A stretch of DNA of 46,468 nt. It comes from Alphaproteobacteria bacterium MarineAlpha6_Bin4 (GTDB taxonomy: Bacteria; Pseudomonadota; Alphaproteobacteria; GCA-002720895). The stretch is from assembly GCA_002937775.1 (NCBI GenBank), contig PTKO01000004.1, positions 1 to 46,468 of the forward strand. The letters are read 5' to 3'. A model generated the notes under the pieces. The model was given only the letters and a program-made list of their open reading frames with translations, was not told where the DNA came from and ran no database searches. Position numbers and translations under genes: made by a program. Positions 1 to 22,358 of this stretch are shown here, piece by piece (position 1 is the first letter of the stretch; each line of letters opens with the position of its first letter).

Positions 1-748
1 ACTTAATTTTATTTTTTATTGAATTTTGTAGTGGAATTTTTTTTATAAATCTTGTTCCATTAAAAATTATTTTATTTTTTTTATAAAAAATAATTTGCTT
101 ATTAAAATTTAAAATTTTAGTTTTTTTATTAATTAATATAACGTTTGCACTATAGCTGGATCCTTTTACAAGAGGTTGAGCAATAAAATTTTTGTTATTA
201 TTTAAAAAATTTGATAGTTTTTTTTTATCATCAAAAATATAATTTTTTTCACATCCAGCACCATCATCGGGCTTAACTACCCATTTTTCGTAAATATCAT
301 AATTAATTTTATTTTTTGAGCAAAATGTTTTTAATGTGGGTATAGAATTTTTTTTGAAAAATTTATAAGTTTCATATTTGCTAGTAGTTTTTTTTATCGC
401 GCTTATTTTGTTAGATATAACTTTTTTTGAATTATTTAATTTAATTAGTTTAATTAAACTTTTTTCAGTTTCAGGAGCTATAGGAAAAAAAAAATCTGAT
501 TTTTTTATAAGCTCTTTCCATTTATTTACAGAATTTTTTTTTATAAAAAAACATTTAGTATTTTTATAATCTTTAAATTTTTTAAATCTTGAGTCCCAAG
601 TATATATTATTTTCGTATTTGGTATTTTGTTGAAATCATTTAATAAAGATTTTAAAATTAAAGTTGCTTGTTGAAATAATTTTTTTGGAATTTTTTTTTT
701 TATATAACCGCCACCTGTAACATATTCGCATATAAATAATATTTTCAT
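1..748 (-). CDS. ATP-grasp ligase, probably methanofuran-type tyramine-glutamate ligase (MfnD-like), 3' end outside window
   Basis: The frame is open from an ATG at 748 to the window edge, giving the first 249 residues; the C-terminus is missing. It opens with EYVTGGG at residues 8-14, which I associate with the ATP-grasp family that contains archaeal MfnD (tyramine-glutamate ligase of methanofuran synthesis) and a homologue in methylotroph H4MPT clusters. A second ATP-grasp signature, KWVVKPDDGAG, lies in the middle of the protein. No signal peptide is visible, so it should be cytoplasmic. Its likely job is adding glutamate to the methylofuran carrier used by the Fhc complex encoded at 7156-11737. 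Its start codon is one base from that of the divergent HisA-like gene. The family is well supported; the exact substrate is inferred from context. Confidence 0.72.
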   Translation of the reverse strand, partial: MKILFICEYVTGGGYIKKKIPKKLFQQATLILKSLLNDFNKIPNTKIIYTWDSRFKKFKDYKNTKCFFIKKNSVNKWKELIKKSDFFFPIAPETEKSLIKLIKLNNSKKVISNKISAIKKTTSKYETYKFFKKNSIPTLKTFCSKNKINYDIYEKWVVKPDDGAGCEKNYIFDDKKKLSNFLNNNKNFIAQPLVKGSSYSANVILINKKTKILNFNKQIIFYKKNKIIFNGTRFIKKIPLQNSIKNKIK

Positions 749-749
749 T

Positions 750-1433
750 ATGGAATTAATACCTGCAATTGATGTACTAAATAATATTGTAGTAAAGGCA
801 TTTTTAGGTAAAAGAAAAAAATATAAACCAATTAAGTCTAAATTAATAAATTCTTCTAATCTAGAAAAAATAATATACAGACTACTTAAAGAATACAAAT
901 TTAAGGTAATTTATATTGCAGATTTAAATGCTATAATGGGGAAAAAGAATAATTTTATAATTATTAAAAAAGTTATTAAGAAGTTTCCAAATATTGAGTT
1001 TTGGGTTGATTGCGGGGTAAGAACTTTTTTGGACATTAAGCAATATGAAAATTTACCATTAAAAATAATCATAGGTTCAGAAACTTTAAGAAACACTAAA
1101 GAGCTAAAAAAAATAAATAAATATAAAAGAAATGAAATAATATTATCCTTAGATTTTAAAGATAACAATTTGCTAGGCCCATTAAATCTATTAAAAAATC
1201 AAAAACTTTGGCCAAAAAAAGTAATTTTTATGTTGATTGATTCAATTGGAACAAAAAAAATATCAGATTTAAAAAAATTAAAAAAATTTTTTTTAACCAA
1301 AAAAAAAGACTTTTATTTAGCAGGAGGGGTATCAAACAATAAAGATATTAATTTCTTAAAAAAAAATGGTTTCAAAGGAACTGTGTTATCAACTGCAATA
1401 CACGAGAAAAAAATTAATTATAAAAATTTGTAA
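750..1433 (+). CDS. HisA-like TIM-barrel protein of the H4MPT/methanofuran gene neighbourhood
   Basis: This 227-residue protein starts PAID at residues 5-8, like HisA/HisF, and keeps Asp8, a second Asp in SLDFKDN (Asp135) and a late LAGGVSN phosphate-binding loop. That is the half-barrel symmetry of the histidine isomerases. It is too divergent, and in the wrong context, to be the histidine biosynthetic HisA. A HisA/HisF-related protein recurs beside H4MPT genes in methanogens and methylotrophs, so a role in making the C1 carrier is the best inference; the reaction is unknown to me. The ATG at 750 gives a normal HisA-type N-terminus. It ends against a strong terminator that separates it from the convergent fae gene. 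Confidence 0.7.
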   Translation: MELIPAIDVLNNIVVKAFLGKRKKYKPIKSKLINSSNLEKIIYRLLKEYKFKVIYIADLNAIMGKKNNFIIIKKVIKKFPNIEFWVDCGVRTFLDIKQYENLPLKIIIGSETLRNTKELKKINKYKRNEIILSLDFKDNNLLGPLNLLKNQKLWPKKVIFMLIDSIGTKKISDLKKLKKFFLTKKKDFYLAGGVSNNKDINFLKKNGFKGTVLSTAIHEKKINYKNL

Positions 1434-1487: not shown

Positions 1488-2003
1488 TTAAACTTTTACG
1501 TTTCCAAAAGGGTGTTCAGCTGATGCTTTTTGTGAAACAACATCTTTAGCTTTAGGTTCTCCCTTAATAGCTCTTTCAATAGATTCTTTAACAGCTTGAT
1601 AGTTGTAATCGTATATTTTTTGATCACTTTTTGCATCCCAGTGAATAAATACACCAACTGATACAAAAACATCATCAGCTTCTCCAGATGGAATTGTTCC
1701 ATCTTCAACAGAGTCAGCAACAGCTCTTGCCACTGCAGCCTGTGCAGGACCAAACATTTGTACAGCTTGTTTAGCACCTTTAATGGTAACTTTATTAAAC
1801 ATAACTGTATTTGGTTTACATGGAAGATTTGGTGCAACAACTGCAAGTAAAGATGTAAAACCATCTTTATTATTTGTTAATGTATTACAAAAAGCAGCTT
1901 CTGCAGCGCTTCCTCTTGGTCCAATAAGTAAATCAATGTGTGCGACTTCATTACCGTCACCAACAAGAGATTCTCCTACAAGTACTTTATTAATTTTAGC
2001 CAT
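1488..2003 (-). CDS. fae: Formaldehyde-activating enzyme
   Basis: Fae condenses formaldehyde with tetrahydromethanopterin to methylene-H4MPT, the entry step of the cytoplasmic C1 pathway. The 171-residue protein is nearly collinear with Methylobacterium Fae: [18 protein letters not shown] at 15-32 with the conserved His22, then [32 protein letters not shown] and [10 protein letters not shown] start it at 2003 (MAKINK), because that matches the family and follows AGGAGGG at 2007-2013; an in-frame codon 36 bases upstream adds residues that do not fit. It is the last gene of the minus-strand H4MPT run, separated by 95 bases from the gene upstream, so it may have its own promoter, though I see no strong consensus one. 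The Shine-Dalgarno is unusually strong for this window and fits high expression. Confidence 0.97.
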
Positions 2004-2006
2004 TAT

Positions 2007-2013
2007 CCCTCCT
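2007..2013 (-). promoter_or_regulatory. Strong ribosome binding site of fae
   Basis: AGGAGGG is read on the minus strand and ends three bases before the fae ATG at 2003. It decides between the two in-frame starts. Most other genes in the window have no visible Shine-Dalgarno sequence. Confidence 0.8.
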
Positions 2014-2098
2014 AAATTAAATAACCTTTTAAAAAACATGACACAGTGATTAAAAACTACATGGTAATGATATTTTGGTAATTTATCTAGGATTTTTT

Positions 2099-2965
2099 TT
2101 ATTGTTTTTTTGTCACTAGTTCTAATAACAGAGTAGCAACTGTTAAATCAGCCGTTGTACCTGGATTAATTTCATTATTTTTAAGCATTTTATCAAAGAA
2201 AAGTAACTTTTTTTCTATTATTTTCATATTTTCATAATTTTTTAGAATATTATAGTATTTTTTTGCCTGTTTTTTGACATTTATGGCAATTTTTATACCA
2301 TTTTTTCTAATTATGTGAGAGTCATTAAATTTTTTTAAAAAAGTTAAATACACTCCTGTAAGAGCCCAATTTACTTTACCCCATTTTTTATAAAATTTAT
2401 CATATGCTGGAATTCCTACCTCAAGAATATCTTTAAAACCACTACAATATTGTTTGGCTATCAAATCTTTTTTTTTTGAATATTCCATAGCTTTATAAAG
2501 ACTTATTCTTGGTAATTTATTAACATCATACTTTTTTGAAAACCCAAGACCACCAGGAGTCGCAATAGATATTGCTTTAAATATGTCATAAGAATTTTTT
2601 GTATTTTGTTTTATTAAAAGTGATTTAATTTTTTTTAATAATTTTTTTTTAGTTAATATTCCTTCCTTTTCAACAACTGTTATAATTGGAGATAACATTA
2701 AAATTATTCCTAAATTTGTATTTTTTCTTATTTTTTTTTTGGTTTCTATAACTGAGTTCAAAATTTTTTTTCCTAAATTATATTTATTATTTGTTAAATA
2801 ATTAGAAATTATCTCTCCTGATTTTATAAAATCTTTTACATTCATACCATGACCAGCAGAATACTTATGCACATTTCCTGGCTTTAATGAATTCATCTCA
2901 TTATTACAAACAAATCTAATTTGTTTTTTTAACATTTTTTTGATTTTTAAATTTTTAGTTTTCAT
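2099..2965 (-). CDS. Triphosphoribosyl-dephospho-CoA synthase-like (CitG/MdcB family) protein of the H4MPT cluster
   Basis: The 288-residue protein has the CitG/MdcB pattern: [20 protein letters not shown] near residues 22-41, TPGGLG in the middle and [14 protein letters not shown] at the C-terminus. True CitG makes the prosthetic-group precursor of citrate lyase, but no citrate or malonate lyase genes are here. In Methylobacterium extorquens a gene of this family (orf7, as I recall) sits between the ATP-grasp gene and fae and is needed for growth on C1 compounds. The same position here supports a role in H4MPT or methylofuran synthesis, probably a phosphoribosyl or nucleotidyl transfer step. 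It overlaps the upstream ATP-grasp gene by ATGA. The family is sure; the function is inferred. Confidence 0.8.
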
Positions 2966-3858
2966 TTTATTTTTGTTAAAAATTCTTTAACCAAAATAGA
3001 AGCAATATTTTTTTTGGTTAATTTTTGCAAAGTTTTCCAAGCAGGGACGCTATTTATTTCTATAACCTTAAAATTGCCATTTATATCTTTTATGATATCA
3101 ATTCCAGCATAACTAGCATTCACTAACTTTGATGCTCTAATTGAAATTTTTTTAATTTCTTTATTAATTCGAAAACTAAGTGGTTTTGCACCTTGCCCAA
3201 TATTTGTTATTTTTTTTTTATTTTCTCTAATCATTGAAGCAATAATTTTTTTATTGCAAACTAATATTCTAAAATCTTGCCACGTATCTTTTGACTTAAT
3301 CTTTTTATTTTCAAATTTTTGTAAGTAAAATACTTTTTCTTTATTTAATTTTAATTTTTTATTTTTAATCACTTTTATACCTTTTCCTTGTGATCCGAAT
3401 AAAGGCTTCCATATAGCATAATTTTTTTCTTTATTTAATTTTTTTAAAATATTTTTAGCAATTTTTATTTTTTCTGGCACCCATGTATCAGGAGTATTTA
3501 TTTTTTTATGACTTAATAGAAAAGTTGTCATAGATTTATCTGTTGATTTTTCAATACAATTTATATCGTTAAATAATACAACTCTTAGTTTTTTTAATGC
3601 ATGAAGTATAGTTAACCTTCTTGTAATTTGTTGAAAGGTACCTTTACCAATAGTTCTTATTATGCACCCATCTGGTAAATTATTTTTGTACCCAGGAATA
3701 AAAATATTTTTTTTTCTTTTTGTATCTATAAAACAATCGTCAAGCGAAAGACATGAAACATTACAATTTAACTTTTTTAATTCTTTTTTTAGCTGATTAC
3801 TATGCCAATCATGTGAATCTGAAAAAATAATTACATTTTTATTTTTTTTCATATCCAA
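2962..3858 (-). CDS. RimK/MptN-like ATP-grasp ligase of the H4MPT cluster
   Basis: This 298-residue protein has the ATP-grasp fold order: an N-terminal pre-ATP region, IWKPLFGSQGKGIKVI near residues 145-165, a DFRILVCNKKIIASMIR strand pair, and the metal-binding end DINGNFKVIEINSVPAW. This resembles RimK and archaeal MptN/CofE-type glutamate ligases. A homologue (orf5) lies directly after mch in Methylobacterium, the same order as here, and has been linked to H4MPT function. It probably attaches an amino acid or glutamate to the pterin or furan cofactor. It overlaps the end of mch by 20 bases, so an in-frame ATG at 3852 is also possible, and it overlaps the next gene by 4 bases, which implies translational coupling. 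Confidence 0.8.
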   Translation of the reverse strand: MDMKKNKNVIIFSDSHDWHSNQLKKELKKLNCNVSCLSLDDCFIDTKRKKNIFIPGYKNNLPDGCIIRTIGKGTFQQITRRLTILHALKKLRVVLFNDINCIEKSTDKSMTTFLLSHKKINTPDTWVPEKIKIAKNILKKLNKEKNYAIWKPLFGSQGKGIKVIKNKKLKLNKEKVFYLQKFENKKIKSKDTWQDFRILVCNKKIIASMIRENKKKITNIGQGAKPLSFRINKEIKKISIRASKLVNASYAGIDIIKDINGNFKVIEINSVPAWKTLQKLTKKNIASILVKEFLTKIK

Positions 3859-4804
3859 AAGATTTATCCAAAAGATTATTATTTAGCTCTCCTTCTGTAA
3901 AAATCTTTCCCGTTTCAAGAGAGATTACAGTTACTTTTCCTGGACTAAATAAATTTGGGTCTATAGCATAAAAGTCTCCTTTATAATTTTTAAAAATTTC
4001 CGCAAAAGGCTTTCCGTAATCTTTAGATGATGTACTTGGGAGATTTTTAGCCAAATTAATTATTTGTTCTTCTGTACCTTTAACTTTTAATTCTACATTA
4101 CCACCATAAAGTATGGCATCGTTAGTTCGACCCATGGATGTAATAAAATCGCTTGATATTGGGGGTATTGGAGCAGTTCCTGAAACTTCAACAACATTTT
4201 TAAGAGGAAAATTTAGAGTGTGTAATTTATGTAAACCTACTTCACTTACTCTTGATACAACTTGAATTACTCCAGAAATACTTTGTGTTGGTGTTAAGAT
4301 TAAAAAAATATTTTTTGAATTAGTTTTGCAGTCATTTGATATTTTTTCTATTATTTCTTTAGGAGGTATTTTATCTACTTCCATTACTAAATAAACAAAT
4401 TCAAAATTATCTTTATATTTTAATTCATTAAACAAATCCTCTCTTCTTGCAATAGCTCTTCCTGGACCAGAAGCTAAAGCATAAAATTTTTCGTAGGATA
4501 AATTCCATCCAGCATACTGACTACCTAAACACGATATAACGGGTTCTTTACTTTTTACCTTTGTTTCTAATGGCCAATGAGGAAAGGTACTAGTTTTTTC
4601 TAATTTTATTGATCCTAGACCTCCCATACAAATCTCTGCTATCAATTTTCCAGCTTCTTGGCTTCCTTTAGTTTCTAAACCAGCATCGATAATTGTGCAA
4701 TCTAGCGGACCTTTTTTTATTAAAACATTTAATTCTTTTGAATTATTAATTAATTTATCAACTAACCCTTTTGCAAGATTTGAAACACTTAAATTTGGAT
4801 TCAT
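3839..4804 (-). CDS. mch: Methenyltetrahydromethanopterin cyclohydrolase
   Basis: Mch hydrolyses methenyl-H4MPT to 5-formyl-H4MPT, the third step of the pathway and the link between MtdB and Fhc. The 321-residue length is typical. Family signatures are visible: GLETKGSQEAGKLIAEICMGG near residues 43-63, CLGSQYAGWNLS, ALASGPGRAIARRED, and a late SGTAPIPPISSDFITSMGRTNDAILYGG stretch seen in bacterial and archaeal Mch. It is cytoplasmic, with no signal peptide. It follows mtdB by 14 bases and overlaps the ATP-grasp gene, so the three are surely co-transcribed. Confidence 0.97.
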   Translation of the reverse strand: MNPNLSVSNLAKGLVDKLINNSKELNVLIKKGPLDCTIIDAGLETKGSQEAGKLIAEICMGGLGSIKLEKTSTFPHWPLETKVKSKEPVISCLGSQYAGWNLSYEKFYALASGPGRAIARREDLFNELKYKDNFEFVYLVMEVDKIPPKEIIEKISNDCKTNSKNIFLILTPTQSISGVIQVVSRVSEVGLHKLHTLNFPLKNVVEVSGTAPIPPISSDFITSMGRTNDAILYGGNVELKVKGTEEQIINLAKNLPSTSSKDYGKPFAEIFKNYKGDFYAIDPNLFSPGKVTVISLETGKIFTEGELNNNLLDKSFGYEKK

Positions 4805-4818
4805 AATAATTATAAAAA

Positions 4819-5727
4819 TTATTTTTTAATTTCTAGGGCGATTTTATATGCTTCTCTAAAGTCTAAAAATACTGGTTTATCAGAGCTACACATTAATTTT
4901 AATAATTTATGCTGAACTTGAGCTTTAATTTGGCCTACAGCTAAAGCCCCAATTCCTGAAACATTTGTATTTTTAATTTTTTCCCCATTTGAATTAACTT
5001 CCAAACCTTCAATTCCAGGAGGAGGCACTGCGTTAACATCAGAAACAACTTTTAAATTTTTTGCTTCTTTAAAATGTTTTAACAATAAAGCTTCTTTTCC
5101 TGCAGCTGCAGCACATAGGATAACATCAGCATCTAAAGACATTTTTGTTTTTTCCTCATCAGTAATTCCCATAATAGCTTCAAGTTCTACATTATATTTT
5201 TCTTTATATTCAGTAACTCTTTTATTAATTGGGTCGACTGCCCCATCTCTATGTATAATCATACCAACTTTTGCACCTTCTTGAGCGGCAATAACTGCGC
5301 ATGCTCCACCAACAATTCCCTTAGCTCCAACTATTTGTACTTTTTTATTTTTAAGATCAGTTTTAAATTCACTCGCTAAAGTATTCTTTACACAAGCTAT
5401 CATTGCTGCTGCGGTTGTAAATGATCCTGCAGGATCTGCGAAAACAGAGATTTCAAAAGGTGGGACCATAGCTTTTTTAGCTTTTTCTAACATCTCAATT
5501 GCTTCTTCTGCATCTTCACCAGCAATAAAAAGCCCAGTTTTTTTACAATCATTTGGGTGTCTTGAAAAAATAATGTCCTGAACCAAATCACTAACATCAT
5601 CCATTGTTATGTTTGTGTAGGTAGCTACATTGTCAAATCCTGAATCATAAGCCATATTTATATCAAAAGGGCTAACAATCTTACTAGGACTCATTGCATG
5701 TAAAATAAATGGTTTTTCTTTTGTCAT
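4819..5727 (-). CDS. mtdB: NAD(P)-dependent methylene-tetrahydromethanopterin dehydrogenase
   Basis: MtdB oxidises methylene-H4MPT to methenyl-H4MPT with NAD(P)+. The 302-residue protein has the MtdA/MtdB N-terminus (FILHAMSPSKIVSPFDINMAYDSGFD), a Rossmann loop VQIVGAKGIVGGACAVIAAQEGAKVG near residues 130-155, and DVNAVPPPGIEGLE late. The order mtdB-mch and the absence of a serine-cycle neighbour here favour MtdB over the H4F-active MtdA, but sequence alone cannot exclude MtdA-like cofactor use. Its ATG overlaps the stop codon of mptG (TAATG), so translation is coupled. Confidence 0.95.
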   Translation of the reverse strand: MTKEKPFILHAMSPSKIVSPFDINMAYDSGFDNVATYTNITMDDVSDLVQDIIFSRHPNDCKKTGLFIAGEDAEEAIEMLEKAKKAMVPPFEISVFADPAGSFTTAAAMIACVKNTLASEFKTDLKNKKVQIVGAKGIVGGACAVIAAQEGAKVGMIIHRDGAVDPINKRVTEYKEKYNVELEAIMGITDEEKTKMSLDADVILCAAAAGKEALLLKHFKEAKNLKVVSDVNAVPPPGIEGLEVNSNGEKIKNTNVSGIGALAVGQIKAQVQHKLLKLMCSSDKPVFLDFREAYKIALEIKK

Positions 5728-6671
5728 TATTTAAATTGAATATCAGCTCCGCTATTTTTAACCGAGCATATTATAAATTCTAAATTTTTACAACTCGAAA
5801 ATCTTTTAATTAGTTTTTTTTGCATTTGTTTTGCTTTTTCTATGTTGGGAAAAAAAGCAAAACCACTTGGGCCCCAAGAAGTTTGGCCATATCCTTTTAC
5901 ATTTTTTTTCTTTAAAAATTTTAGGACATTTCCTACTGAAATACTTGAAAATTTACCTCCTTGAAATGATTTAAATTTTTTACTCATTTCATTTTGTAAT
6001 TTAGTAATTGCTTTACTAAAATTATCAAAATTATTTTCAATTATTGAAGGATATATTTCTAATAAAACTAAGCTAGCCAAATTAATATTATTTTTTTTTA
6101 AACTTTTAAGTTTTTTAAAAGCTTCCATTTCATTTTTACCATGTAAGCCTTGATCATTATCTTTTACTAAAATTATTTTCCATTCTTCTGGAAAAAAAAC
6201 TTTATCAATATTTGAATAAAACTTGTTACTTATTTTTAAATCAATCAAAAAACCTCCATGTTTAAAATTAATTAATCCTACATTTGATCTTGAACTTCTA
6301 TTTAGTATTTTTGCAATTTCTTCTATATTTAAATTAATATTGTTTAAATTAGAAATAGCAGTTCCAATAGATAACGCTAATTGCGTTCCCGAGCCTAACC
6401 CTATATGTTGCGGAGAAGATTTTTCTATATTAATAGAAAAATTAGATTTGATTTTATTTTTTTTACAAAATTTTGTTAAAAAAAACTGAGCTTTATTTGA
6501 CACTTTACTCTTAAGTTTCATTTTAGTATTTTTTTTAATAATTATTTTTGTATGAAATTTATCTATACTCAGACCAATTCCTCCAAATTTTGAATGACAA
6601 CTATTGTTTAGTTCTATGAAACCAAAATGTAATCTCGAAGGAGTTATTATTTGTATAGTATTTTTTAACAT
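5727..6671 (-). CDS. mptG: Beta-ribofuranosylaminobenzene 5'-phosphate synthase (GHMP-kinase fold)
   Basis: The enzyme joins p-aminobenzoate and phosphoribosyl pyrophosphate in the first committed step of H4MPT synthesis. The 314-residue protein opens with ITPSRLHFGFIELN, then SSPQHIGLGSGTQLALSIG near residues 89-108, the glycine-rich GHMP loop in the form typical of this synthase, and a C-terminal GQTSWGPSGFAFF segment. It heads the minus-strand operon with mtdB and mch. The 89-base gap to the divergent gene at 6761 must hold its promoter. Its presence means the cell makes its own H4MPT rather than acquiring it. Confidence 0.93.
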   Translation of the reverse strand: MLKNTIQIITPSRLHFGFIELNNSCHSKFGGIGLSIDKFHTKIIIKKNTKMKLKSKVSNKAQFFLTKFCKKNKIKSNFSINIEKSSPQHIGLGSGTQLALSIGTAISNLNNINLNIEEIAKILNRSSRSNVGLINFKHGGFLIDLKISNKFYSNIDKVFFPEEWKIILVKDNDQGLHGKNEMEAFKKLKSLKKNNINLASLVLLEIYPSIIENNFDNFSKAITKLQNEMSKKFKSFQGGKFSSISVGNVLKFLKKKNVKGYGQTSWGPSGFAFFPNIEKAKQMQKKLIKRFSSCKNLEFIICSVKNSGADIQFK

Positions 6672-6760
6672 TTAACTTTCAATTTATTTCGTTAAACTTT
6701 TTAACTAAAATATCATAAGTATATTTTTATATTTTAATAACAAATTTATTAGGAAAAATA

Positions 6761-7138
6761 ATGAGTAAAGATGATAAAGTTTATAGCGAAGCAGAGATAA
6801 AGGAAATATTAAAAAAAGATTTACCATTATGGGTATTTGAAGGAAATTGGATTAAAAGAAAATATAAAACCCAGAATTGGAAGTCAACTTTAATGGTCAT
6901 AAATACAGTTGGGCACTTAGCAGAGGCTGCTTGGCATCATCCTGATATTACAGCATCTTACGCTTGGGTTGAAGTTCGTTTAACTAATCATGCAGCAAAA
7001 GGAGTTACAGATAAAGATTTTGAACTTGCAAAAAAAATAGAAGATACTATTCAGTGGGATCCATCTAAAGATAAAGGTTCTTTAGAGGGAACACCAAAAG
7101 AAGACCAAAGATTTTCGTATATAAAATACGATAAATAA
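6761..7138 (+). CDS. 4a-hydroxytetrahydrobiopterin dehydratase-like protein (PCD/DCoH family)
   Basis: This 125-residue protein has the PCD active-site arrangement: AEAAWHHPDI with His59-His60 and, later, VRLTNHAAKGVTDKDFELAKKIE with the third His and Asp. PCD normally recycles the oxidised pterin of phenylalanine hydroxylase, which is not encoded here. Leading the fhc operon 17 bases before fhcB, a role on methanopterin (synthesis or repair) is more likely than amino acid hydroxylation; this is inference. The C-terminus extends about 20 residues beyond the usual fold. AGGA lies 6 bases before the ATG. It should be cytoplasmic. Confidence 0.88.
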   Translation: MSKDDKVYSEAEIKEILKKDLPLWVFEGNWIKRKYKTQNWKSTLMVINTVGHLAEAAWHHPDITASYAWVEVRLTNHAAKGVTDKDFELAKKIEDTIQWDPSKDKGSLEGTPKEDQRFSYIKYDK

Positions 7139-7155
7139 TTTTTTGTTTTTTTTAT

Positions 7156-8394
7156 ATGAAAAATATTAATTTCACATGCCCGTTTTGTTCTTTACTGTGT
7201 GATGATGTCCAATTAGAAATTAAAAAAAACAGCTTTAAACCTGTAAACTCAGGATGTTCTCTTTTAGTTAGTTCATTAAAAAAAAAGATTAATGACCAAT
7301 TCTCAAGGGTTAATGGCAAAAAAACTAATATTTCTGAAGCAATTACCGAATTATCTTTAATGATAAAAGAAAGTAAATCTACACTATTTACTGGAATGGC
7401 CACTGATATTAAAGGAACAAAAGCAGCACTTAATATTATTGATAAATATAAATGTATTGTTGACCATTTCTCCGGCGACAGTTATTCAAAGAATTTAAAG
7501 AGCATGCAGGAAACTGGAGGTTTTTTTTTAACTTTATCAGAATTAAAAAATAGAGCAGATACTATTATTATATTTCAATCGACAGGAGAAGAACTTCCTA
7601 GATTGTTTGAAAAATATATTTTCCCAAAAAAGACAATAAATAATTTAAAAAAAAGGAAAGTTATTTTTATTGGTACCAAAGTTCCAAAATTTTTTTATAA
7701 AAATAAAAAAATAATTAATTTTGAATTTATAAAATTAGATTCTATTAATTTACTAAATTTTTTATCAAGTATTAGAAATTCTATTAATTTTGAAACGAAA
7801 GAAGCAAAAGATAAAAGAATTTTGTATTTATTAGATATTTTAAAAAAAACAAATTATGGATCTATCTTATGGAATGCCTCGGAGTTTCAAAACGATATTA
7901 GTGATGTAATTATAAATGAAATAAATTTATTAATTCAAGATTTAAACAAATTTACAAGATTTTCTGGTTTATCATTATCAGCGTCTGATCATGTTTTAAC
8001 AGTTAATGAAGTTTTATTATGGCAAACAGGATTTCCAATTAGGACCAGTTTTGCAAATGGTTTTCCTACACATGACACCAATCAATTTTCAACAAAAAAA
8101 TTAATAGATAATAAAGAAATAGATTTGGTTGTATGGATAAATTCTTTTAATGAAAAAAGTATTGTTATTAACAAAAAAATCAAAAATGTTTTAATTGGAA
8201 TTCCATCGCATCCTCAGAAAAATAATGTAGATATTTTTATACCTGTAGGTACACCGGGATTAGATCACAATAGCCATTTGTTAAGAGTGGATAAAGTAGT
8301 TTCAATGCCATTAAAAAAAATCAGAAACATTTCACTACCAAGTGTCGATCAAATTTTGAATAAAGTAAAAGAAGGAGTTACTGATGATAATTAA
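7156..8394 (+). CDS. fhcB: Formyltransferase/hydrolase complex subunit B (formylmethanofuran dehydrogenase B homologue)
   Basis: FhcB is the structural partner of FhcA in the complex that turns formyl-H4MPT into formate via methylofuran. The 412-residue protein starts with CPFCSLLCDD (Cys8, Cys11, Cys15) and a fourth Cys34, the spacing of the N-terminal cluster of molybdopterin oxidoreductases. The region that in archaeal FwdB carries the tungsten/molybdenum Cys ligand (before TLSELKNRAD) reads HFSGDSYSKNLKSMQETGG, with no Cys, so redox activity is probably lost as in Methylobacterium FhcB. The late VGTPGLDHNSHLLRVD segment is a family feature. It overlaps fhcA by 11 bases. Confidence 0.92.
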   Translation: MKNINFTCPFCSLLCDDVQLEIKKNSFKPVNSGCSLLVSSLKKKINDQFSRVNGKKTNISEAITELSLMIKESKSTLFTGMATDIKGTKAALNIIDKYKCIVDHFSGDSYSKNLKSMQETGGFFLTLSELKNRADTIIIFQSTGEELPRLFEKYIFPKKTINNLKKRKVIFIGTKVPKFFYKNKKIINFEFIKLDSINLLNFLSSIRNSINFETKEAKDKRILYLLDILKKTNYGSILWNASEFQNDISDVIINEINLLIQDLNKFTRFSGLSLSASDHVLTVNEVLLWQTGFPIRTSFANGFPTHDTNQFSTKKLIDNKEIDLVVWINSFNEKSIVINKKIKNVLIGIPSHPQKNNVDIFIPVGTPGLDHNSHLLRVDKVVSMPLKKIRNISLPSVDQILNKVKEGVTDDN

Positions 8395-10048
8395 ATTAGA
8401 AAATGCAAGAATTTACGATCCAATTAATAAAATTAATGGAAAAGTTAAAGATTTATATATAAAAAATCAATATATTGTTGATAAACCAAAAAGTGGTGAA
8501 AAAATATCAAAAAAAATTAATCTAAAAAATAAAATTATTATGGCTGGTGGAATAGACATCCATAGCCATATTGCTGGAGGAAAAGTTAACCTTGCCAGAT
8601 TATTGTTACCAGAAGAACATAGAGAACATCTATATCCATCCTCAGAAAATTTAAGATCTGGTTCAGGATTAGGAACTTGCAGTTCATTTCATATAGGTTA
8701 TAAATATGCCAAACTAGGATATTGTGCAGTCTTTGAACCTGCAGTACTCCCATCTAATGCAAGATCTGCAATTATCGAAATGTCAGACATACCTTTTGTT
8801 GATAAAGGAACATACACAGTTTTAAGTAATGATGATTTTTTATTAAATTTGATACAAAAAAAAATAAGCCAGAAAAAAATTAATGATTATGTTGCCTGGA
8901 TACTTAATTCAACAAAAGGACTAGGTATTAAAATTGTAAATCCAGGAGGCATTAATGCTTTTAAATTTAATCAAAGAGCGCTTGATCTAGATGAAAAAAA
9001 TAAAAAATATGGAATTACACCTAGATCTATTTTAAAAGTTTTAACTAAATCATTAATTGATTTGAAAGCTCCGCATCCAATACATGTTCATGGGTGTAAT
9101 TTAGGAGTTCCTGGTAATGTTAATACTACAATAAAACAAATTAAAGCAGTTGAAGGAAAGCCTATGCATTTAACCCATATCCAATATCATTCTTATGATA
9201 ATAAGGGAGATAGAAAATTTTCATCTGGAGCAAGTCTTTTAGCTGAAAATATAAACAAGCAAAAAAATATTACCTGTGATGTCGGACAAATTATGTTTGG
9301 TCAAACAGTAACAGCATCAGCTGATACAATGAGCCAATACAAAAATCACCATTTTGCGCGTCCAAAAAAATGGATATGCGCTGATATTGAATGCGATGCT
9401 GGTTGCGGCATAGTTCCATTTGAATACCAAGATAAAAATTTTGTTAATTCACTCCAATGGGCTATAGGACTAGAACTATTTTTATTAATTAAAGACCCTT
9501 GGAGAATTTACTTAACTACTGATCATCCAAATGGTGCGGCATTTACCGCCTATCCAAAATTAATAAAATTATTAATGGATAAATCTTTCAGAGATGGTGA
9601 ATTTGAGAAAATTAATAAAGAAGCACAAAAAAGCTCTGTGCTGGGTAATTTAAAAAGAGAATATAGCCTTTATGATATTGCAATTCTTACAAGGGCTGGT
9701 CCTGCAAAAGTTTTAGGTTTAACTAATATTGGGCATTTGGGTATTGGTGCCAAAGCAAACATAACAGTTTATAATAACAAAGAAGATAAAGAGGAAATGT
9801 TTGAAAACCCATTTATGGTTTTTAAAGACGGCAATTTAATCGTAAAAAATGGTAAAATACAAAAAGTTTTTAATGGTAAATTTTATACAGCAGAAACTGA
9901 TTTTGATAAAAAAATTGAAAAAGAAATTAGTTCTTATTTTCAAAAATATATGGGTAGAGGAATGGAAAGTTTTAAAATAAAAAATCAAGAATTATGGGAT
10001 TATGGAATAGAAACTGAAAATATTAAATGTGATAGAAATGATTATTAA
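8384..10048 (+). CDS. fhcA: Formyltransferase/hydrolase complex subunit A (amidohydrolase)
   Basis: FhcA hydrolyses formyl-methylofuran to formate. The 554-residue protein is an amidohydrolase: GGIDIHSHIAGG carries the His60-x-His62 metal ligands, PIHVHGCNLGVPGN and MHLTHIQYHSY supply further His ligands, and LTTDHPNGAAFTAYP carries the catalytic-type Asp. The order and length match FwdA/FhcA. The protein is cytoplasmic and works with FhcB, FhcD and FhcC, encoded next to it with overlapping ends. The ATG at 8384 follows GGAG at 8373-8376 inside fhcB, consistent with coupled translation. Confidence 0.96.
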   Translation: MIIKLENARIYDPINKINGKVKDLYIKNQYIVDKPKSGEKISKKINLKNKIIMAGGIDIHSHIAGGKVNLARLLLPEEHREHLYPSSENLRSGSGLGTCSSFHIGYKYAKLGYCAVFEPAVLPSNARSAIIEMSDIPFVDKGTYTVLSNDDFLLNLIQKKISQKKINDYVAWILNSTKGLGIKIVNPGGINAFKFNQRALDLDEKNKKYGITPRSILKVLTKSLIDLKAPHPIHVHGCNLGVPGNVNTTIKQIKAVEGKPMHLTHIQYHSYDNKGDRKFSSGASLLAENINKQKNITCDVGQIMFGQTVTASADTMSQYKNHHFARPKKWICADIECDAGCGIVPFEYQDKNFVNSLQWAIGLELFLLIKDPWRIYLTTDHPNGAAFTAYPKLIKLLMDKSFRDGEFEKINKEAQKSSVLGNLKREYSLYDIAILTRAGPAKVLGLTNIGHLGIGAKANITVYNNKEDKEEMFENPFMVFKDGNLIVKNGKIQKVFNGKFYTAETDFDKKIEKEISSYFQKYMGRGMESFKIKNQELWDYGIETENIKCDRNDY

Positions 10049-10931
10049 TGGAATAAAAATCGAAAACACCTTTGCCGAAGCATTTCCAATGAAAGTAGCA
10101 AGACTAATTATCACTGCAGATTCAAAATATTGGTTAAAACAGGCGGCAAACAGTATTACAGGTTTTGCAACTTCAGTAATTGCTTGTGGTTGTGAAGCTG
10201 GTATAGAAAAAGAAATTAAATCATCAAAAACACCCGATGGTAGATCTGGAATAGCTGTACTTTTATTTGCTATGAACAGCGAAGGCCTTGCTAAACAGGT
10301 TTTAAGAAGAGTTGGGCAATGTATTTTGACTGCACCAACTACAGCATGTTTTTCTGGAATAGAAACAAATGAAAAAATAAATTTAGGAGATGCAATAAGA
10401 TATTTTGGAGATGGCTTTCAAATTTCAAAGAAAATTAATGATAAAAAAATATGGAGAATTCCTGTTATGGAAGGAGAATTTGTTATTGAAGACAAAACAA
10501 GTATTGCTAGTGGTATCGGAGGGGGAAATATATTAATTATTGGAGACTCAAATCAACAAGTTTTGAAATCTGCAGAAGCAGCAGTCAAAGAAATGAGAAA
10601 AGTTGATAATATAGTTTTACCATTTCCTGGAGGAATTGTTAGATCAGGATCAAAAGTAGGATCAAAATACAAAAATCTTATAGCATCAACAAATGATGCA
10701 TACTGCCCAACTTTAAGAGGAATTACTAAAACAAAATTAAGTAAAAGTAACGAGTCAGTATTAGAAATCGTTATTGATGGGACTAATGAAAAAGACATAG
10801 AAAAAGCAATGAAACAAGGAATTAATATTATTTGTAAGAAATATAATAAGGGTATTAAAACAATATCAGCAGGAAATTATGGCGGAAAGTTAGGACCATA
10901 CCATTTTCATTTAAGAAAAATCATGAAATGA
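10038..10931 (+). CDS. fhcD: Formylmethanofuran-tetrahydromethanopterin formyltransferase (complex subunit D)
   Basis: FhcD (Ftr homologue) moves the formyl group from H4MPT to methylofuran. It reads INGIKIENTFAEAFPMKVARLIITA at the N-terminus, GFATSVIACGCEAGIE, PDGRSGIAVLLF, and the C-terminal GNYGGKLGPYHFHL, all hallmarks of Ftr. I start at the ATG at 10038 (MIINGIKIENTF), which aligns with the family; a GTG at 10029 would add three residues. The start lies inside the end of fhcA, and the stop overlaps the fhcC ATG (ATGA), so the complex is made from one coupled message. The length of 297 residues is normal. Confidence 0.96.
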   Translation: MIINGIKIENTFAEAFPMKVARLIITADSKYWLKQAANSITGFATSVIACGCEAGIEKEIKSSKTPDGRSGIAVLLFAMNSEGLAKQVLRRVGQCILTAPTTACFSGIETNEKINLGDAIRYFGDGFQISKKINDKKIWRIPVMEGEFVIEDKTSIASGIGGGNILIIGDSNQQVLKSAEAAVKEMRKVDNIVLPFPGGIVRSGSKVGSKYKNLIASTNDAYCPTLRGITKTKLSKSNESVLEIVIDGTNEKDIEKAMKQGINIICKKYNKGIKTISAGNYGGKLGPYHFHLRKIMK

Positions 10932-11737
10932 GTTATTTAGTTTTAAAATTAAAAAAAAAATTAAAGTATAGAATTAATTTGGGTGTTTTAACTCCAAATA
11001 ATATTGCAAACAAAAAAATCTCAATTATCAAATCTTTAAAGATTCTTTATGGTAAAGAAAAAAAAGAAATTTCGAATTTTTTTTCTATATCTGGAAACTT
11101 AAAAAAAGGAATTCTTTTTAAAGGAAACTTAAATAAATGTGATTTTATTGGGCACCAAATGATAGATGGAAAAATAATAGTTAAAGGAGATGTTGGTGAT
11201 TATTTAGGAAATAAAATGAAAGGTGGAAAAATAATTATTTATGGTTCTTCATCTAACTACACAGGCGCCTCTTTATCTAATGGAGAAATTTTAGTAACTA
11301 AAAATACTGGAGATTTTTTAGGAAGTTCAATCCAAGGTGAAAAATTAGGAATGTCAGGAGGAACAATTATTGTTAAAGGAAACGCAGGAAACAGAGTGGG
11401 TTATAAAATGAGATCGGGTATTATTTTTATTAAGAAAAATGCTAAGGATTTTATTGGCTGCCAAATGATTGCGGGAACAATAATTATTAAAGGTAAAATT
11501 GGCTCCAATCTAGGGCTTTTAATGAAAAGGGGCACAATTATTTTGGAAAAACAAAAATTATCAGCATCTCATTTGAGTTATAATGGAAAAAATAATTATA
11601 TTTTTTTAAAAGTTATTCAAAGTTATTTGGAGAAATTAAACGATGAATTTAAAGATATTTTTCCTAATACCTACATAAAAAAATATTTAGGTGATATAAA
11701 TTGTAAAGGTATGGGAGAAATATTGATTCTTAAATAA
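10928..11737 (+). CDS. fhcC: Formyltransferase/hydrolase complex subunit C (GXGXG beta-helix)
   Basis: The 269-residue protein contains at least six copies of a repeat of the form G-D/N-x-x-G-x-x-M-x-G-G-x-I-x-I-x-G between about residues 65 and 190, the right-handed beta-helix shared with FwdC and the C-terminal domain of glutamate synthase. FhcC is the fourth structural subunit of the complex. It is the last gene of the coupled fhcBADC set; the next gene starts 19 bases later on the same strand and is of a different type. It is not a glutamate synthase fragment, because the amidotransferase and flavin domains are absent and the partners are all Fhc subunits. Confidence 0.94.
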   Translation: MSYLVLKLKKKLKYRINLGVLTPNNIANKKISIIKSLKILYGKEKKEISNFFSISGNLKKGILFKGNLNKCDFIGHQMIDGKIIVKGDVGDYLGNKMKGGKIIIYGSSSNYTGASLSNGEILVTKNTGDFLGSSIQGEKLGMSGGTIIVKGNAGNRVGYKMRSGIIFIKKNAKDFIGCQMIAGTIIIKGKIGSNLGLLMKRGTIILEKQKLSASHLSYNGKNNYIFLKVIQSYLEKLNDEFKDIFPNTYIKKYLGDINCKGMGEILILK

Positions 11738-11756: not shown

Positions 11757-12269
11757 ATGGATTCTTTAAGTACAGTAGTAGCGTCTCTTTTTGTTTGGAT
11801 TTCATCGCATTTATACGTTGTTAATGCTGATTTTAAAGAACCAAATTATCAACCTGAAATAAAGTTTATGCCACATAAAGAATTGTCAAAAATTGCGTGT
11901 GAGAAACCATGTCCTGTTATTGGCTGGTACCCAACTGAAGATCAAATCGAAGGGGAAGAAAAGTTATACTTGATTAAGGGGGCTGATCCAATCAATGATT
12001 TATGCATTAGAACCATACTACTTCATGAACTTGTACATTTTTGGCAAGATTATAATAATGCATTTGAGGAACCTGGTGATAGTAAAAAGGTTGTGTTTAC
12101 TAGGAGAGAGCAACAGGCTCATATTTTAGAACATTTATATAGAGGGCAACAATATGATAAATATAAGCTAAAAACAGGAAAAGAATATAGTCCTAAATGT
12201 TGTAAACAAATTGCATTTGGTAGATGTATAAATAATCCAGGCTGGATTAAACAATATATAAAAGAATAA
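11757..12269 (+). CDS. Small probable exported zincin-like protein with HExxH motif, function unknown
   Basis: I do not recognise this 170-residue protein as a named family. Residues 1-24 include a short hydrophobic stretch that could be a signal peptide, although positive charges at the N-terminus are lacking. HELVHFW at 90-96 is a zinc-metallopeptidase motif, and REQQAHILEHLY at 117-128 offers Glu118 as a third ligand, as in gluzincins. Six cysteines (48, 52, 83 and three between 148 and 157) could form disulfides outside the cytoplasm. It sits between fhcC and hpnN, all on the plus strand, and may share either transcript. It is small for a secreted protease and could be a non-peptidase zinc protein. 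Confidence 0.72.
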   Translation: MDSLSTVVASLFVWISSHLYVVNADFKEPNYQPEIKFMPHKELSKIACEKPCPVIGWYPTEDQIEGEEKLYLIKGADPINDLCIRTILLHELVHFWQDYNNAFEEPGDSKKVVFTRREQQAHILEHLYRGQQYDKYKLKTGKEYSPKCCKQIAFGRCINNPGWIKQYIKE

Positions 12270-12310: not shown

Positions 12311-14845
12311 ATGACCAGTTCTTTAATTAATTTGGTTTTAACATATCCAAAAAGATTCATTCTTTTTATTCTACTGATAACTTTAGCCGCTGGATGTTTT
12401 GTATATAAAAATATTTCAGTAAATACATCAAATACAGATTTACTTTCTAAAGAGTTAACATTTAGAAAAAATGACATAGCATTTAAAAAAGAATTTCCTC
12501 AATTTTCAAACAATATAATTTTAGTGATTGATGCTAGAAAAGGTGATATTGCCAAAGATATAGCCTCTACATTTTATAAAGAATTAAAAAATAACGAGGA
12601 AGAATTATTCAGCGATGTTTTTTATCCTAATGAACTAGATTTTTTTAAAAAAAATGGAATTTTATATTTATCTGTAGAAGAATTAGAAGAAAGATTAGAT
12701 GATATGGCTAATTATCAGCCATTTATTACTAGACTATCTAATGATCAAACTTTATACGGATTATTAAATACAATAAATCTTTTTTTATCTGCAGATTTAA
12801 ACGATAGTTATGTAAATCAAATTAATAAATTACTTAAAAATCTCACAGAACAAAAAAGCCTCACTTGGGGAAATATTTTTTCTCTTGAGAATGAGTTAAA
12901 CTATAGAGAGATAATTTATCTTCAACCCAAGCTTGATTATTCAAAATTCTTTCCTTCAGAAAGTTCATTAATTTTTTTAGAGAAAAAAATAGAAAATATT
13001 AAAACAAATTATAAACACACAGACTCTAAGAATTTTAATATTCGTTTAACTGGAACAGTTCCTATGGAGCAAGATGAATTAAATACTTTAGGAGGTGGTG
13101 CAAAAAAAGGAATAACTATTTCTCTAATTTTAGTTTTTATCTTTTTATTATATGCATTCAAAAACTCAATATATCTTTTTGCTAGTTTTTTTACTTTATT
13201 AATCGGTTTAATTTGGACAACGTCTTCTGCTTTATTTTTCTTTAACGAATTAAATTTAATATCTATTGCTTTTGCAATACTTTTTATTGGACTGGGCATT
13301 GATTTTTCAATCCACTATCTTTTAAGAACATATGAATTTTCTAGTAAAGAAATAAACGATTTCTTATTTTTAACAAATAAAAGTATAACAAATGCATTGT
13401 TATTAACTGCAATAGCAATTGCTATTGGTTTCTTTAGTTTTGCATTTACATCTTTTCAAGGATTGGCACAGCTAGGAATTATTGCTGGTACCGGAATGTT
13501 CATTTCATTGTTTTTAACTTTATTTTTTTTACCATCTTTTTTAATTTTAATAAAAAAAATTTTTAATAAAAGTTTAGATAAAAAACAAAATAACAACTCA
13601 AAAAGTTTTCAATTTGTAAATTTCATGACATTTTTTAAAAATAATAGTAATACTTTTTTTACTATATCTACTATTTTTCTTTTATTTTCTATATTTAACT
13701 TAAAAAATATTAAATTTCATAACAATCCTTTAGAATTACGTAATCAACAAAGCACTTCGGTTGCTACAATGAATGAACTAATTAAAGACAGAAGCTTAAA
13801 CCCAAACAGCGTTGATATTTTAGTAAAAAATATTTCAGAAGGAATTAAATTAAAAAGCAATCTTTCCTTTTCAGACAAAATAAAAGAAGTAAATTTTATT
13901 GAAGATCTTGTACCTCAAAATCAAGATGAAAAATTAGAAATAATAAATCAATTCAAAACTTTTTTTCCTGAAATTAAAATGAATGAAGCTGTCATTATTA
14001 AAGAAACAAATATAAAAAAAAAAGAGGATGAATTACTAATAAATATAGAAAATAAAATTAATGAAAAATATAAATCTTTAATCAATTTATCATATATAAA
14101 AAAATTAAAAGAAAGAAAATTTTCTGAAGATATTTTTTATTTTTTTAGAGAAAATATAAGCAATTTTAATAATAGTTTAAAAGCAGAAAAGATATTAAAA
14201 GAAAATATTCCAGAAAGTTTGAAATCTAGGTATGTTGGTATTAATGGAGCAATAAGAATGGAAATTATTCCATTTGAAAATTTAAATAATCAGAGAAATA
14301 AGAAAGAATTTGTTGAGTATGTATATAAAAATGCACCCAATGTATCTGGAGGAGCATTTACAACTTATGAAGCAGGAAAAACAATAATTTCTTCTTTTAA
14401 AGAAGCTATGACAATTTCTATATTTTTAACTACTTTATTTTTATTTATAACTTTAAGAAATTTAAGAAAAGTTTTTATAGTTTTTATTAATTTAATTGCT
14501 GCTTTATTATTTTCTTTATCATTTCTAAGTTTATTTGGTCTAAATCTAAATTTTGCAAACATTATTGCCCTGCCTTTGCTTTTTGGTTTAGGTGCAGCAA
14601 CTTCAATCCAGACTATTTTAAGAACTGAAAAATTTAAAACATTAGATGATTATTTTAATAGTACAACTCCACGAGCCATTATTTTTAGTTTATTAACAAC
14701 ATTAGGTACTTTTTTTGTTTTATCACTTTCATCACATGTTGGTACTTCAAGTATGGGAAAATTATTAATAATATCTTTATTTTCAATATTTTTAGCAAAT
14801 TTAACAATTCTAATACCTCTAGAAAAATATTTTTTTAAAAAATGA
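12311..14845 (+). CDS. hpnN: Hopanoid biosynthesis-associated RND/MMPL transporter
   Basis: HpnN is an inner-membrane RND-like pump thought to move hopanoids toward the outer membrane. The 844-residue protein has a first membrane segment near residues 11-31, a periplasmic loop, a block of membrane segments at about 265-415, another single segment near 447-465, a second periplasmic domain and a final block from about 695 to 842. This two-fold MMPL layout and the N-terminal SVNTSNTDLLSKELTFRKND fit HpnN. It overlaps hpnA by ATGA, so it leads the operon hpnN-hpnA-ispH-hpnH. The only alternative is another MMPL pump, which the neighbours make unlikely. Confidence 0.93.
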   Translation: MTSSLINLVLTYPKRFILFILLITLAAGCFVYKNISVNTSNTDLLSKELTFRKNDIAFKKEFPQFSNNIILVIDARKGDIAKDIASTFYKELKNNEEELFSDVFYPNELDFFKKNGILYLSVEELEERLDDMANYQPFITRLSNDQTLYGLLNTINLFLSADLNDSYVNQINKLLKNLTEQKSLTWGNIFSLENELNYREIIYLQPKLDYSKFFPSESSLIFLEKKIENIKTNYKHTDSKNFNIRLTGTVPMEQDELNTLGGGAKKGITISLILVFIFLLYAFKNSIYLFASFFTLLIGLIWTTSSALFFFNELNLISIAFAILFIGLGIDFSIHYLLRTYEFSSKEINDFLFLTNKSITNALLLTAIAIAIGFFSFAFTSFQGLAQLGIIAGTGMFISLFLTLFFLPSFLILIKKIFNKSLDKKQNNNSKSFQFVNFMTFFKNNSNTFFTISTIFLLFSIFNLKNIKFHNNPLELRNQQSTSVATMNELIKDRSLNPNSVDILVKNISEGIKLKSNLSFSDKIKEVNFIEDLVPQNQDEKLEIINQFKTFFPEIKMNEAVIIKETNIKKKEDELLINIENKINEKYKSLINLSYIKKLKERKFSEDIFYFFRENISNFNNSLKAEKILKENIPESLKSRYVGINGAIRMEIIPFENLNNQRNKKEFVEYVYKNAPNVSGGAFTTYEAGKTIISSFKEAMTISIFLTTLFLFITLRNLRKVFIVFINLIAALLFSLSFLSLFGLNLNFANIIALPLLFGLGAATSIQTILRTEKFKTLDDYFNSTTPRAIIFSLLTTLGTFFVLSLSSHVGTSSMGKLLIISLFSIFLANLTILIPLEKYFFKK

Positions 14846-15849: not shown

Positions 15850-15862
15850 TAAAATAAAAAAA

Positions 15863-16813: not shown

Positions 16814-16817
16814 ATAT

Positions 16818-21533: not shown

Positions 21534-22358
21534 TTAGAAAATTATTCCTTTAATAAAAAGATAAAATTTTTCTATTTTTGTTAAATTAACTCTTTCTTCA
21601 AAACTATCCCAACCTTTTTTTTTTAACTTTTTTAATAGCAGCTTATAAGTGTTCATCATTAAAATTGCTGATTTTAGATTTTTTTTTTCTGATAATTTTA
21701 AATATTTATTTGCAAGTTCAAAATTTTTGTCCGCATATTCTGATAATTTCTCGCATGCTTCTGGAAATTTTTTATCATTTAATATATGTGTTATTTTATT
21801 TTTTTTTATTCCTGAACTATTTAATATTTCAATAGGAATATATAATCTGCCCATTTTTTCATCTTGCTTTATATCTCTTAGTATATTTGTTGTTTGTAAA
21901 GCATCTGCTAGACGTAGACCAAAATTTTTTGAATTAAAATTATAGCATCCAAAGATTTTTAAACTTATCATTCCTACAGCACCAGCCACTCTATAACAAT
22001 ATAATTTAAAAATATTATTTTTTGGACAAATCATAATATTGTTTATATCCATTTCCACACCTGAAATTATGTCTAAGAAATATTTTTTATCTAATTTGTA
22101 TTTTTCTATGTAGTATTTTAAATTTCTTCTAAAAGCATTATTCAAATTATCTCTATATATTTCATTAATTTCTTTTTTTAATTTTTTAATCTTTCTTTTT
22201 TTTTCTTTTTCTGAATTATTGTTGTCAGCAATTGAATCTGCTTTTTTACAAAAATCATATATTGAAAACATTGCGTCTCTTTTTTCTTTGTTTAAAATTC
22301 TTATTCCCCAGTAAAATGAAGATTTTGGATACTTAATTATATTTTTGTTTTTTAACAA
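21534..22358 (-). CDS. hpnD: Presqualene diphosphate synthase
   Basis: HpnD condenses two farnesyl diphosphates into presqualene diphosphate. The 274-residue protein has SSFYWGIRIL near residues 13-22, the first Asp-rich site ADSIADNNN near 40-48, VAGAVGMISLKIFGC, and the second site ALQTTNILRDIKQDEKMGRLYIP near 155-178, where both Asp residues and RLYIP are the family signature. The start is a TTG at 22358, 21 bases after the hpnC stop; it gives the normal HpnD N-terminus. hpnE follows with no spacing. Confidence 0.94.
   Translation of the reverse strand: MLKNKNIIKYPKSSFYWGIRILNKEKRDAMFSIYDFCKKADSIADNNNSEKEKKRKIKKLKKEINEIYRDNLNNAFRRNLKYYIEKYKLDKKYFLDIISGVEMDINNIMICPKNNIFKLYCYRVAGAVGMISLKIFGCYNFNSKNFGLRLADALQTTNILRDIKQDEKMGRLYIPIEILNSSGIKKNKITHILNDKKFPEACEKLSEYADKNFELANKYLKLSEKKNLKSAILMMNTYKLLLKKLKKKGWDSFEERVNLTKIEKFYLFIKGIIF

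Follow-up and report, generated by a model that had tools for sequence, protein, structure and literature searches.

An H4MPT-dependent formaldehyde-oxidation module in the methylotrophy island of an AT-rich marine alphaproteobacterial lineage apparently separate from TMED127/Methylaequorales

Contig PTKO01000004.1 of the genome MarineAlpha6_Bin4 (hereafter "the window", the whole stretch analysed, 46,468 bases) carries genes for formaldehyde oxidation dependent on tetrahydromethanopterin (H4MPT). From the genes, their conserved residues, their order and their relatives we conclude with good confidence that the window holds one half, that for formaldehyde oxidation, of a methylotrophy island on the chromosome, and that its host belongs to an AT-rich marine lineage separate from TMED127/Methylaequorales. 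Pathway and island are known; the host is apparently a separate-looking, little-described methylotrophic lineage. The window is contig C34 of a 69%-complete genome (G000) with 855,376 bases spread over 43 contigs; the full genome would thus be roughly 1.2 Mb. G002 and G003 belong to the same genus, and the six genomes G000–G005 make up the window's family, f1; other families are numbered likewise. G003 is the most complete of the six (89%, with 6% contamination; that of G002 is 0%). The GC content of the window is 26.2%, and 23–30% in every 4-kb segment listed. A plasmid search with the H4MPT module as query gave no match.

All named genes of the module are intact open frames; bit scores below are given against the curated cut-offs of NCBIfam (TIGR/NF) and Pfam. 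The reverse strand carries fae, for the formaldehyde-activating enzyme (1488..2039; TIGR03126, 9e-75, 250 bits, cut-off 118; PDB 1y5y, E 6.5e-76), mch, for methenyl-H4MPT cyclohydrolase (3839..4804; TIGR03120, 3e-116, 388 bits, cut-off 229), and a gene named mtdB, for methylene-H4MPT dehydrogenase, by position and identity (4819..5727; PF09176, 4e-35, 120 bits, cut-off 27). The forward strand carries fhcB (7156..8394; TIGR03129, 220 bits, below the cut-off of 328), fhcA, for formyltransferase/hydrolase subunit A (8384..10048; TIGR03121, 2e-214, 713 bits, cut-off 393), fhcD, for formylmethanofuran (formyl-MFR):H4MPT formyltransferase (10029..10931; TIGR03119, 4e-128, 427 bits, cut-off 293), and fhcC (10928..11737; TIGR03122, 3e-68, 230 bits, cut-off 131). 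Hence Fae, the MtdB-type dehydrogenase, Mch and FhcABCD are all found in one genome, with family matches far above chance, as the earlier note on this DNA had it.

The accessory cofactor genes that the note had also named are present as well. On the reverse strand, mptG, of the beta-ribofuranosylaminobenzene 5'-phosphate (RFAP) synthase family (5727..6671), exceeds the cut-off of TIGR00144 (138 bits, cut-off 113.5) and falls below that of the RFAP synthase equivalog NF040726 (164 bits, cut-off 328). The same strand encodes a RimK/MptN-like ATP-grasp ligase (2962..3858; MptN NF040720, 8e-53, 179 bits, below the cut-off of 350) and a CitG-like protein, a presumed accessory of cofactor synthesis (2099..2965; PF01874, 4.5e-55, 188 bits, cut-off 27; 52 bits against NCBIfam CitG, below 272). 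A pterin-4a-carbinolamine dehydratase-like protein is encoded on the forward strand (6761..7138; PF01329, 1e-25) and is 98% identical in G003. The module also reaches past position 1488, beyond fae, with a HisA/HisF-family gene of the H4MPT cluster (750..1433, forward; TIGR00734, 127 bits, below the cut-off of 180), the start of which overlaps a divergent H4MPT-cluster ATP-grasp frame (2..898, reverse; PF02655). The latter is truncated at base 1, where the contig ends, and its 335-aa orthologue in G003 is 73% identical. The HisA-like gene is equally placed in G003 and G001, and in regions of f9, f118, f59 and f87.

FhcA aligns over its full length with chain A of 6s6y, the closest solved FhcA. 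We take 6s6y to be the Methylobacterium extorquens complex, and 1y5y, 6tge and 6s6y all to be proteins of strain AM1. His60, His62, Lys183, His234, His236, His265 and Asp380, which we assume to be the metal site and the catalytic aspartate, are identical in 40/40 aligned FhcA sequences (that of the window counted, in an alignment that holds no archaeal outgroup). FhcB is presumed, from its alignments, to be a non-redox relative of FwdB: its Ser109 aligns with the Mo/W-binding selenocysteine of archaeal FwdB (9sfi chain Q; a single pairwise alignment of low identity), and a serine at this position fits a hydrolytic rather than a redox complex. FhcB aligns with most of the archaeal FwdB (86 bits) and only partly with 6s6y chain B (42 bits). 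The M. extorquens AM1 system shares with the window Fae, MtdB, Mch, FhcABCD, accessory genes and the FhcA site residues; the window differs in its strong AT bias and in the closer alignment of its FhcB with the archaeal protein.

The dehydrogenase at 4819..5727 has no NCBIfam match at E<=1e-5, and its Pfam family allows MtdA or MtdB. We prefer the name MtdB because the gene lies beside mch, and because 25/31 Mch loci have a relative no more than 1.5 kb from mch. These relatives are 37–52% identical, with one weak match at 32%; most of the matches are pieces of 36–132 residues cut by the locus edge, and two are full length. Solved MtdA-type structures match the dehydrogenase more remotely (E about 1e-30).

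What would these genes do together? The reactions of the Fae, MtdB, Mch and Fhc families are well established. On the route that we propose, a periplasmic, lanthanide-dependent XoxF5 would oxidize methanol to formaldehyde, and Fae would condense formaldehyde with H4MPT. MtdB would then convert methylene-H4MPT to methenyl-H4MPT, which Mch would hydrolyse to formyl-H4MPT. FhcD would pass the formyl group on to methylofuran, from which FhcA, together with FhcB and FhcC, would release it as formate by hydrolysis. The products of mptG and its neighbours would make the cofactors, and carbon would be assimilated through the ethylmalonyl-CoA pathway, presumably in combination with the serine cycle.

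The window's contig breaks just past the H4MPT module, at its ATP-grasp end. In G003, a contig of 68,136 bases (C20) holds the module in the same order and runs on beyond the ATP-grasp gene with genes for a PF01968 hydantoinase-type protein, an MfnB-like and a DmrB-like protein, and then xoxF5 (some 11 kb beyond the position that corresponds to the break), xoxJ, pqqE, pqqD, pqqC and pqqB. After pqqB come genes for a TonB receptor, its scores below cut-offs, and for an ATP-binding cassette (ABC) transporter, which are likely to serve lanthanide uptake. The matches to xoxF5, xoxJ, pqqE, pqqC and pqqB are over cut-off, and pqqD was assigned by eye and place only. Of the cofactor genes, one of the MptG family lies in the window, and an MfnB-like one past the place of the break in G003. 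G002 shows the lut-pqq-xoxJ-xoxF part on a contig of its own, arranged as in G003. The XoxF5 proteins of both genomes carry a WDYD motif (DxD), which we take as a mark of lanthanide dependence, and the best solved matches of the G003 protein are XoxF structures (6oc5/6dam). The host's own genome encodes a different alcohol dehydrogenase dependent on pyrroloquinoline quinone (PQQ), at G000:C23:1367-3001 (L125) and also found in G002:C1. It has a WDLD motif, its best solved match is 6zcv, presumably PedH, and it is a possible lanthanide-dependent alcohol oxidizer besides XoxF.

Among genes for carbon assimilation, Ccr is over cut-off in five of the six f1 genomes and in 14/17 of all genomes searched. 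In G000 it adjoins an acyl-CoA dehydrogenase, a second mutase of the methylmalonyl-CoA mutase type and a cobalamin adenosyltransferase; two of these neighbours may be methylsuccinyl-CoA dehydrogenase and ethylmalonyl-CoA mutase, their matches reaching the level of enzyme class only. The window itself encodes methylmalonyl-CoA mutase and MeaB (33147..36311, forward), which we take to be the last steps of the ethylmalonyl-CoA pathway. The serine cycle is presumed from Ccr and from likeness to TMED127. For 2-oxoglutarate dehydrogenase (2-OGDH), a sucC-sucD-sucA order is present in G000, where sucA (the E1 subunit) runs off the contig and scores 602 bits against a cut-off of 770, and G004 has E1 in two pieces. 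We propose that the host is probably a facultative methylotroph.

Which lineage is this? The nearest named relatives (four loci) are Pelagibacteraceae bacterium SP38 and SP2998, MarineAlpha6_Bin2 and ALOHA_A2.5_6, in a two-peptide-pattern scan that reaches close relatives only. Two of these four nearest records are labelled Alphaproteobacteria and two Pelagibacteraceae, and the relatives compared are of the same class by kinship label. This bears out the earlier note's placing of the host in the Alphaproteobacteria. A tree of 12 rpo/str-operon proteins from 24 genomes unites the window's genus with genome G034 at 100/99, in the order f118,(f9,(G034,f1)); rpoB was matched in 26 of 30 genomes, those without a match (G002, G005, G278 and G371) are not in the trees, and G022 and G075 were left out. 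G034 is a single contig of 1,410,127 bases, the size of the HIMB59 genome, and it is the nearest other genome in the trees. This is the likeness to HIMB59/AEGEAN-169; the difference is that in G034 Mch gave no match and no Ccr exceeded its cut-off, and that its 2-OGDH is over cut-off. After four-letter recoding, f1 and G034 remain together (SH-aLRT 99.6, bootstrap 85), and the deep forks among the island-bearing families are weak. The names SP38 and SP2998 fit with this: according to PMC8879329, a number of marine genomes labelled Pelagibacteraceae proved to be relatives of HIMB59. The name UBA8558, which f1 could bear, occurs in PMC12542740 alone among the papers searched.

The pathway, which the earlier note did not know from AT-rich marine Alphaproteobacteria such as SAR11, is not new to such bacteria: a "methylotrophy island" of hopanoid, H4MPT, XoxF and PQQ genes has been described for TMED127/Methylaequorales (Glass et al. 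2025, PMC12542740). TMED127 and f1 both have a hopanoid cluster, genes for H4MPT synthesis and C1 transfer, xoxF5, PQQ genes and lanthanide uptake in one stretch, and both have small marine genomes with the ethylmalonyl-CoA pathway (PMC12542740). "Clade X", marine alphaproteobacteria with XoxF5 (PMC11996626), equals TMED127 according to PMC12542740, and f1 appears not to belong to it. TMED127 is one family with 12 genera (PMC12542740). Our family f9, with 32 genomes in 12 genera, fits it because of this number and because 2-OGDH E1 was not found in 3/3 f9 genomes tested; we infer that f9 is TMED127. Could the window then come from just another TMED127/Methylaequorales genome, and its lineage be nothing new? 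The shared hopanoid-H4MPT-XoxF-PQQ-lut layout would fit, as would the grouping of the H4MPT genes of f1 and f9 at 94/96. However, f9 is related to the window's genome as "same class" only, a clade of f1 and f9 is rejected (p-AU 0.0021 in the approximately unbiased (AU) test), as is one of f1, f9 and f118 without G034 (p-AU 0.0004), and fhcA lies outside the island in the f9 genomes G244 and G324. The AU tests used the LG+G4 model, and the groups tested were named once the tree was known. We consider this explanation very unlikely. Kinship, the size of the family and the AU test led us to drop the idea that f1 is TMED127 itself. From the kinship label and the AU test, and with f9 taken as TMED127, f1 is apparently outside the TMED127/Methylaequorales order.

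With f9 taken as TMED127, there are further differences. In the window fhcBADC is contiguous within the island, whereas in G244 and G324 fhcA is elsewhere and belongs to another FhcA group. Partial 2-OGDH is found in two of the six f1 genomes, in contrast to none in 64 TMED127 genomes (PMC12542740). Finally, G244 has a 222-aa frame between mtdB and mch, whereas no gene separates the two in the window's genus.

Several observations weigh against parts of this picture. XoxF5 was not found in the host's own genome at its 69% completeness; the match there is the different PQQ dehydrogenase, at 33% identity. Of the other f1 genomes, G002 and G003 have XoxF5, G001 has a match of 43 residues with one stop inside at a contig edge, G004 has no match, and G005 has a match of 81 residues that is 30% identical. 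G003, which provides most of the evidence for the full island, is the genome with 6% contamination and two fhc copies, and its MfnB-like and DmrB-like cofactor genes are below cut-offs. No phosphoenolpyruvate (PEP) carboxylase turned up in the parts searched, which cover about 46% of the host's own genome and about 44% of G003, and the serine cycle is therefore presumptive. No 2-OGDH E1 was found in G001, G002, G003 or G005, and with partial genes in two of six genomes the tricarboxylic acid cycle may be incomplete in the family. MtdB used as a query for MtdA found nothing beyond MtdB. Shared AT bias may contribute to the joint position of f1 and G034. A search for serine-cycle enzymes by short motifs in stretches of the host's genome also gave nothing, a weak negative since some of the patterns are crude. 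In G003, a sucCD-like pair scores 516 bits, below the malate-CoA ligase cut-off (604) and over that of succinate-CoA ligase.

A rival reading, which the missing XoxF5 would fit, is that the module detoxifies formaldehyde released by demethylation of methylated amines, dimethylsulfoniopropionate (DMSP) or methoxy compounds, and does not support growth on methanol. The partial 2-OGDH makes growth on multicarbon compounds plausible. Against this reading, the island in G003 and G002 continues with xoxF5, xoxJ, pqq genes and others likely to serve lanthanide uptake, and five of the six f1 genomes have Ccr; we think it improbable. The note's suggestion of a little-described methylotrophic lineage is upheld: the route is present, and no paper tying members of the lineage to methylotrophy was found. 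It needs two corrections, in that AT-rich marine Alphaproteobacteria with this route had been described as TMED127/Methylaequorales, and in that the C1 input enzyme XoxF5 was found in the same-genus genomes G002 and G003 and not in the host's own. Among titles and abstract openings we found no description of methylotrophy in the window's family, supplements and most subscription journals being outside the scope of that search. The word "methanol" is absent from the passages of PMC8879329 on MarineAlpha.

The doubled fhc genes of G003 are near-identical copies at contig ends (C18 and C20), and on C18 fhc is joined to hopanoid genes. G005 likewise has two similar fhc copies (C50 and C74). In both genomes the doubling probably reflects two strains binned together.

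How did f1 come by the island? Transfer from a distant phylum, which the earlier note had allowed for, was set aside, as the trees group the genes with those of marine families: f1 Mch joins Mch of marine f9, f59, f118 and f130 at 94/88, and f1 stands beside f9 at 94/96 in a tree of island genes, both values falling short of what counts as a secure branch. With 13 rows, several less than half filled, the island-gene tree has the order f118,(f9,f1), at 98/99 and 94/96, and agrees with the rpo/str tree. FhcA was found in four of the six f1 genomes and 27/32 f9 genomes. In a tree of 40 rows, the f1 copies group with island-type copies of f59, with f130 and with others, including three rows of other classes (82/89). 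A second group holds f9, f70 and f174 (100/99), and a third f118 and second copies of f59 (100/100); we tentatively take f70 and f174 to be Rhizobiales. In the two f9 genomes whose islands were inspected, G244 and G324, fhcA is on a non-island contig, and fhcB, fhcD and fhcC stay in the island.

We tentatively propose that f1 represents an order-level lineage, sister to HIMB59/AEGEAN-169, of facultative lanthanide-dependent methanol oxidizers. The island would be ancestral to a whole AT-rich marine alphaproteobacterial group, lost in HIMB59, and kept in f1 with fhcA in place, while TMED127 would have swapped fhcA for a copy related to those of f70/f174 and coded elsewhere. This full scenario is a reasonable possibility, short of a probable one. 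Acquisition of the island by lateral transfer, with another marine alphaproteobacterium as donor, is a matter of origin compatible with our conclusions on the island and its host. It would account for the lack of an Mch match and of Ccr over cut-off in the sister genome G034, and for the grouping of f1 FhcA with f59, f130 and others and not with f9; in the island-gene tree a clade of f1 and f118 is not rejected (p-AU 0.059). Against transfer stand the same order of families in the island-gene and rpo/str trees and the even GC content, and loss in the G034 line is simpler. We regard transfer as rather unlikely.

Second or relocated fhc loci lie at G244:C14 (L119), G122:C7 (L120), G063:C69 (L121), G184:C12 (L122) and G355:C73 (L123). 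No other fhc gene was found on the 10-kb contig that carries fhcA in G244, and the f59 genomes G063 and G355 each have two fhc sets, of different FhcA groups.

The significance of these findings is threefold. First, among AT-rich marine alphaproteobacterial lineages with small genomes, f1 would be the second to have the full route from methanol to formate. Second, f1 seems to keep 2-oxoglutarate dehydrogenase, unlike Methylaequorales, and open-ocean methanol use may therefore split between obligate and facultative specialists. Third, the origin of the island becomes testable, as vertical descent with loss in HIMB59 or as transfer.

An Mch query against 60 relatives, the host's own genome included, matched five genomes, all in f1, and 0/54 outside it; G002, of the same genus, has no match. 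An Mch profile matched 19 of 385 genomes of the class, four in f1 and 15 in f9, f59, f70, f71, f87, f118, f130 and f131, and 18/398 in a draw from the phylum, own genome counted. In all 11 other Mch regions compared the order mch-mptN-citG is conserved, and in nine fae comes next; in the other two, G324 and G355, the contig stops within citG. Beside mch, mtdB is present in seven of the 11. On the mtdB side, the contigs of G278, G063 and probably G075 end, and G371 has about 18 kb without mtdB. As in f1, hopanoid genes, H4MPT genes and xoxF occur in one stretch in G244 (f9), G122 (f118) and G184 (f59). No fhc was found in the island stretch of G122 and G184, where fhcBADC is elsewhere; in G355 (f59), as in the window, fhcBADC separates the hopanoid genes from the H4MPT genes. 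Regions of f130 hold the core only, that of G371 (f87) extends from mch to mfnB, and the contigs of G075 (f71), G278 and G324 are too short for island layout to be judged. Outside f1 and f9, 2-OGDH E1 was not found in G122 or in two of four f59 genomes tested; it is over cut-off in G063, G134 and G235, as in G034, and in pieces in G278.

The interval between mtdB and mch varies among these families, with a 403-aa frame in f118, the 222-aa frame in f9 and a 1.2-kb stretch of shorter frames in f59 (L032:18023-19231, L036:18434-19099 and L041:18300-19550). By eye, the intervening frame resembles an ATP-grasp gene.

On its other side the module adjoins the hopanoid flank of the island. A 170-aa protein without a family match (11757..12269, forward) lies between fhcC and hpnN, and its relatives occur where hopanoid and H4MPT genes meet in f118 and f59, and also in G003 and G005. 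It is followed by hpnN (below cut-off), hpnA, ispH and hpnH (12311..17960, forward), and by shc, hpnE, hpnD and hpnC (18378..23195, reverse; HpnD and HpnC below cut-offs). Scans of the window for tRNAs and Rfam families gave no match. A secreted-looking 593-aa protein is encoded at 43457-45238, with no match in Pfam or NCBIfam, and at its end the window holds the first part of a CitE/malyl-CoA-lyase-family gene, truncated where the contig stops (46173..46468, forward; PF03328, 1e-12). Near the methylmalonyl-CoA mutase gene, at 36654-39407, lie cobS and cobT of an aerobic cobaltochelatase (below curated cut-offs), which in so small a genome suggests that the host makes its own B12.

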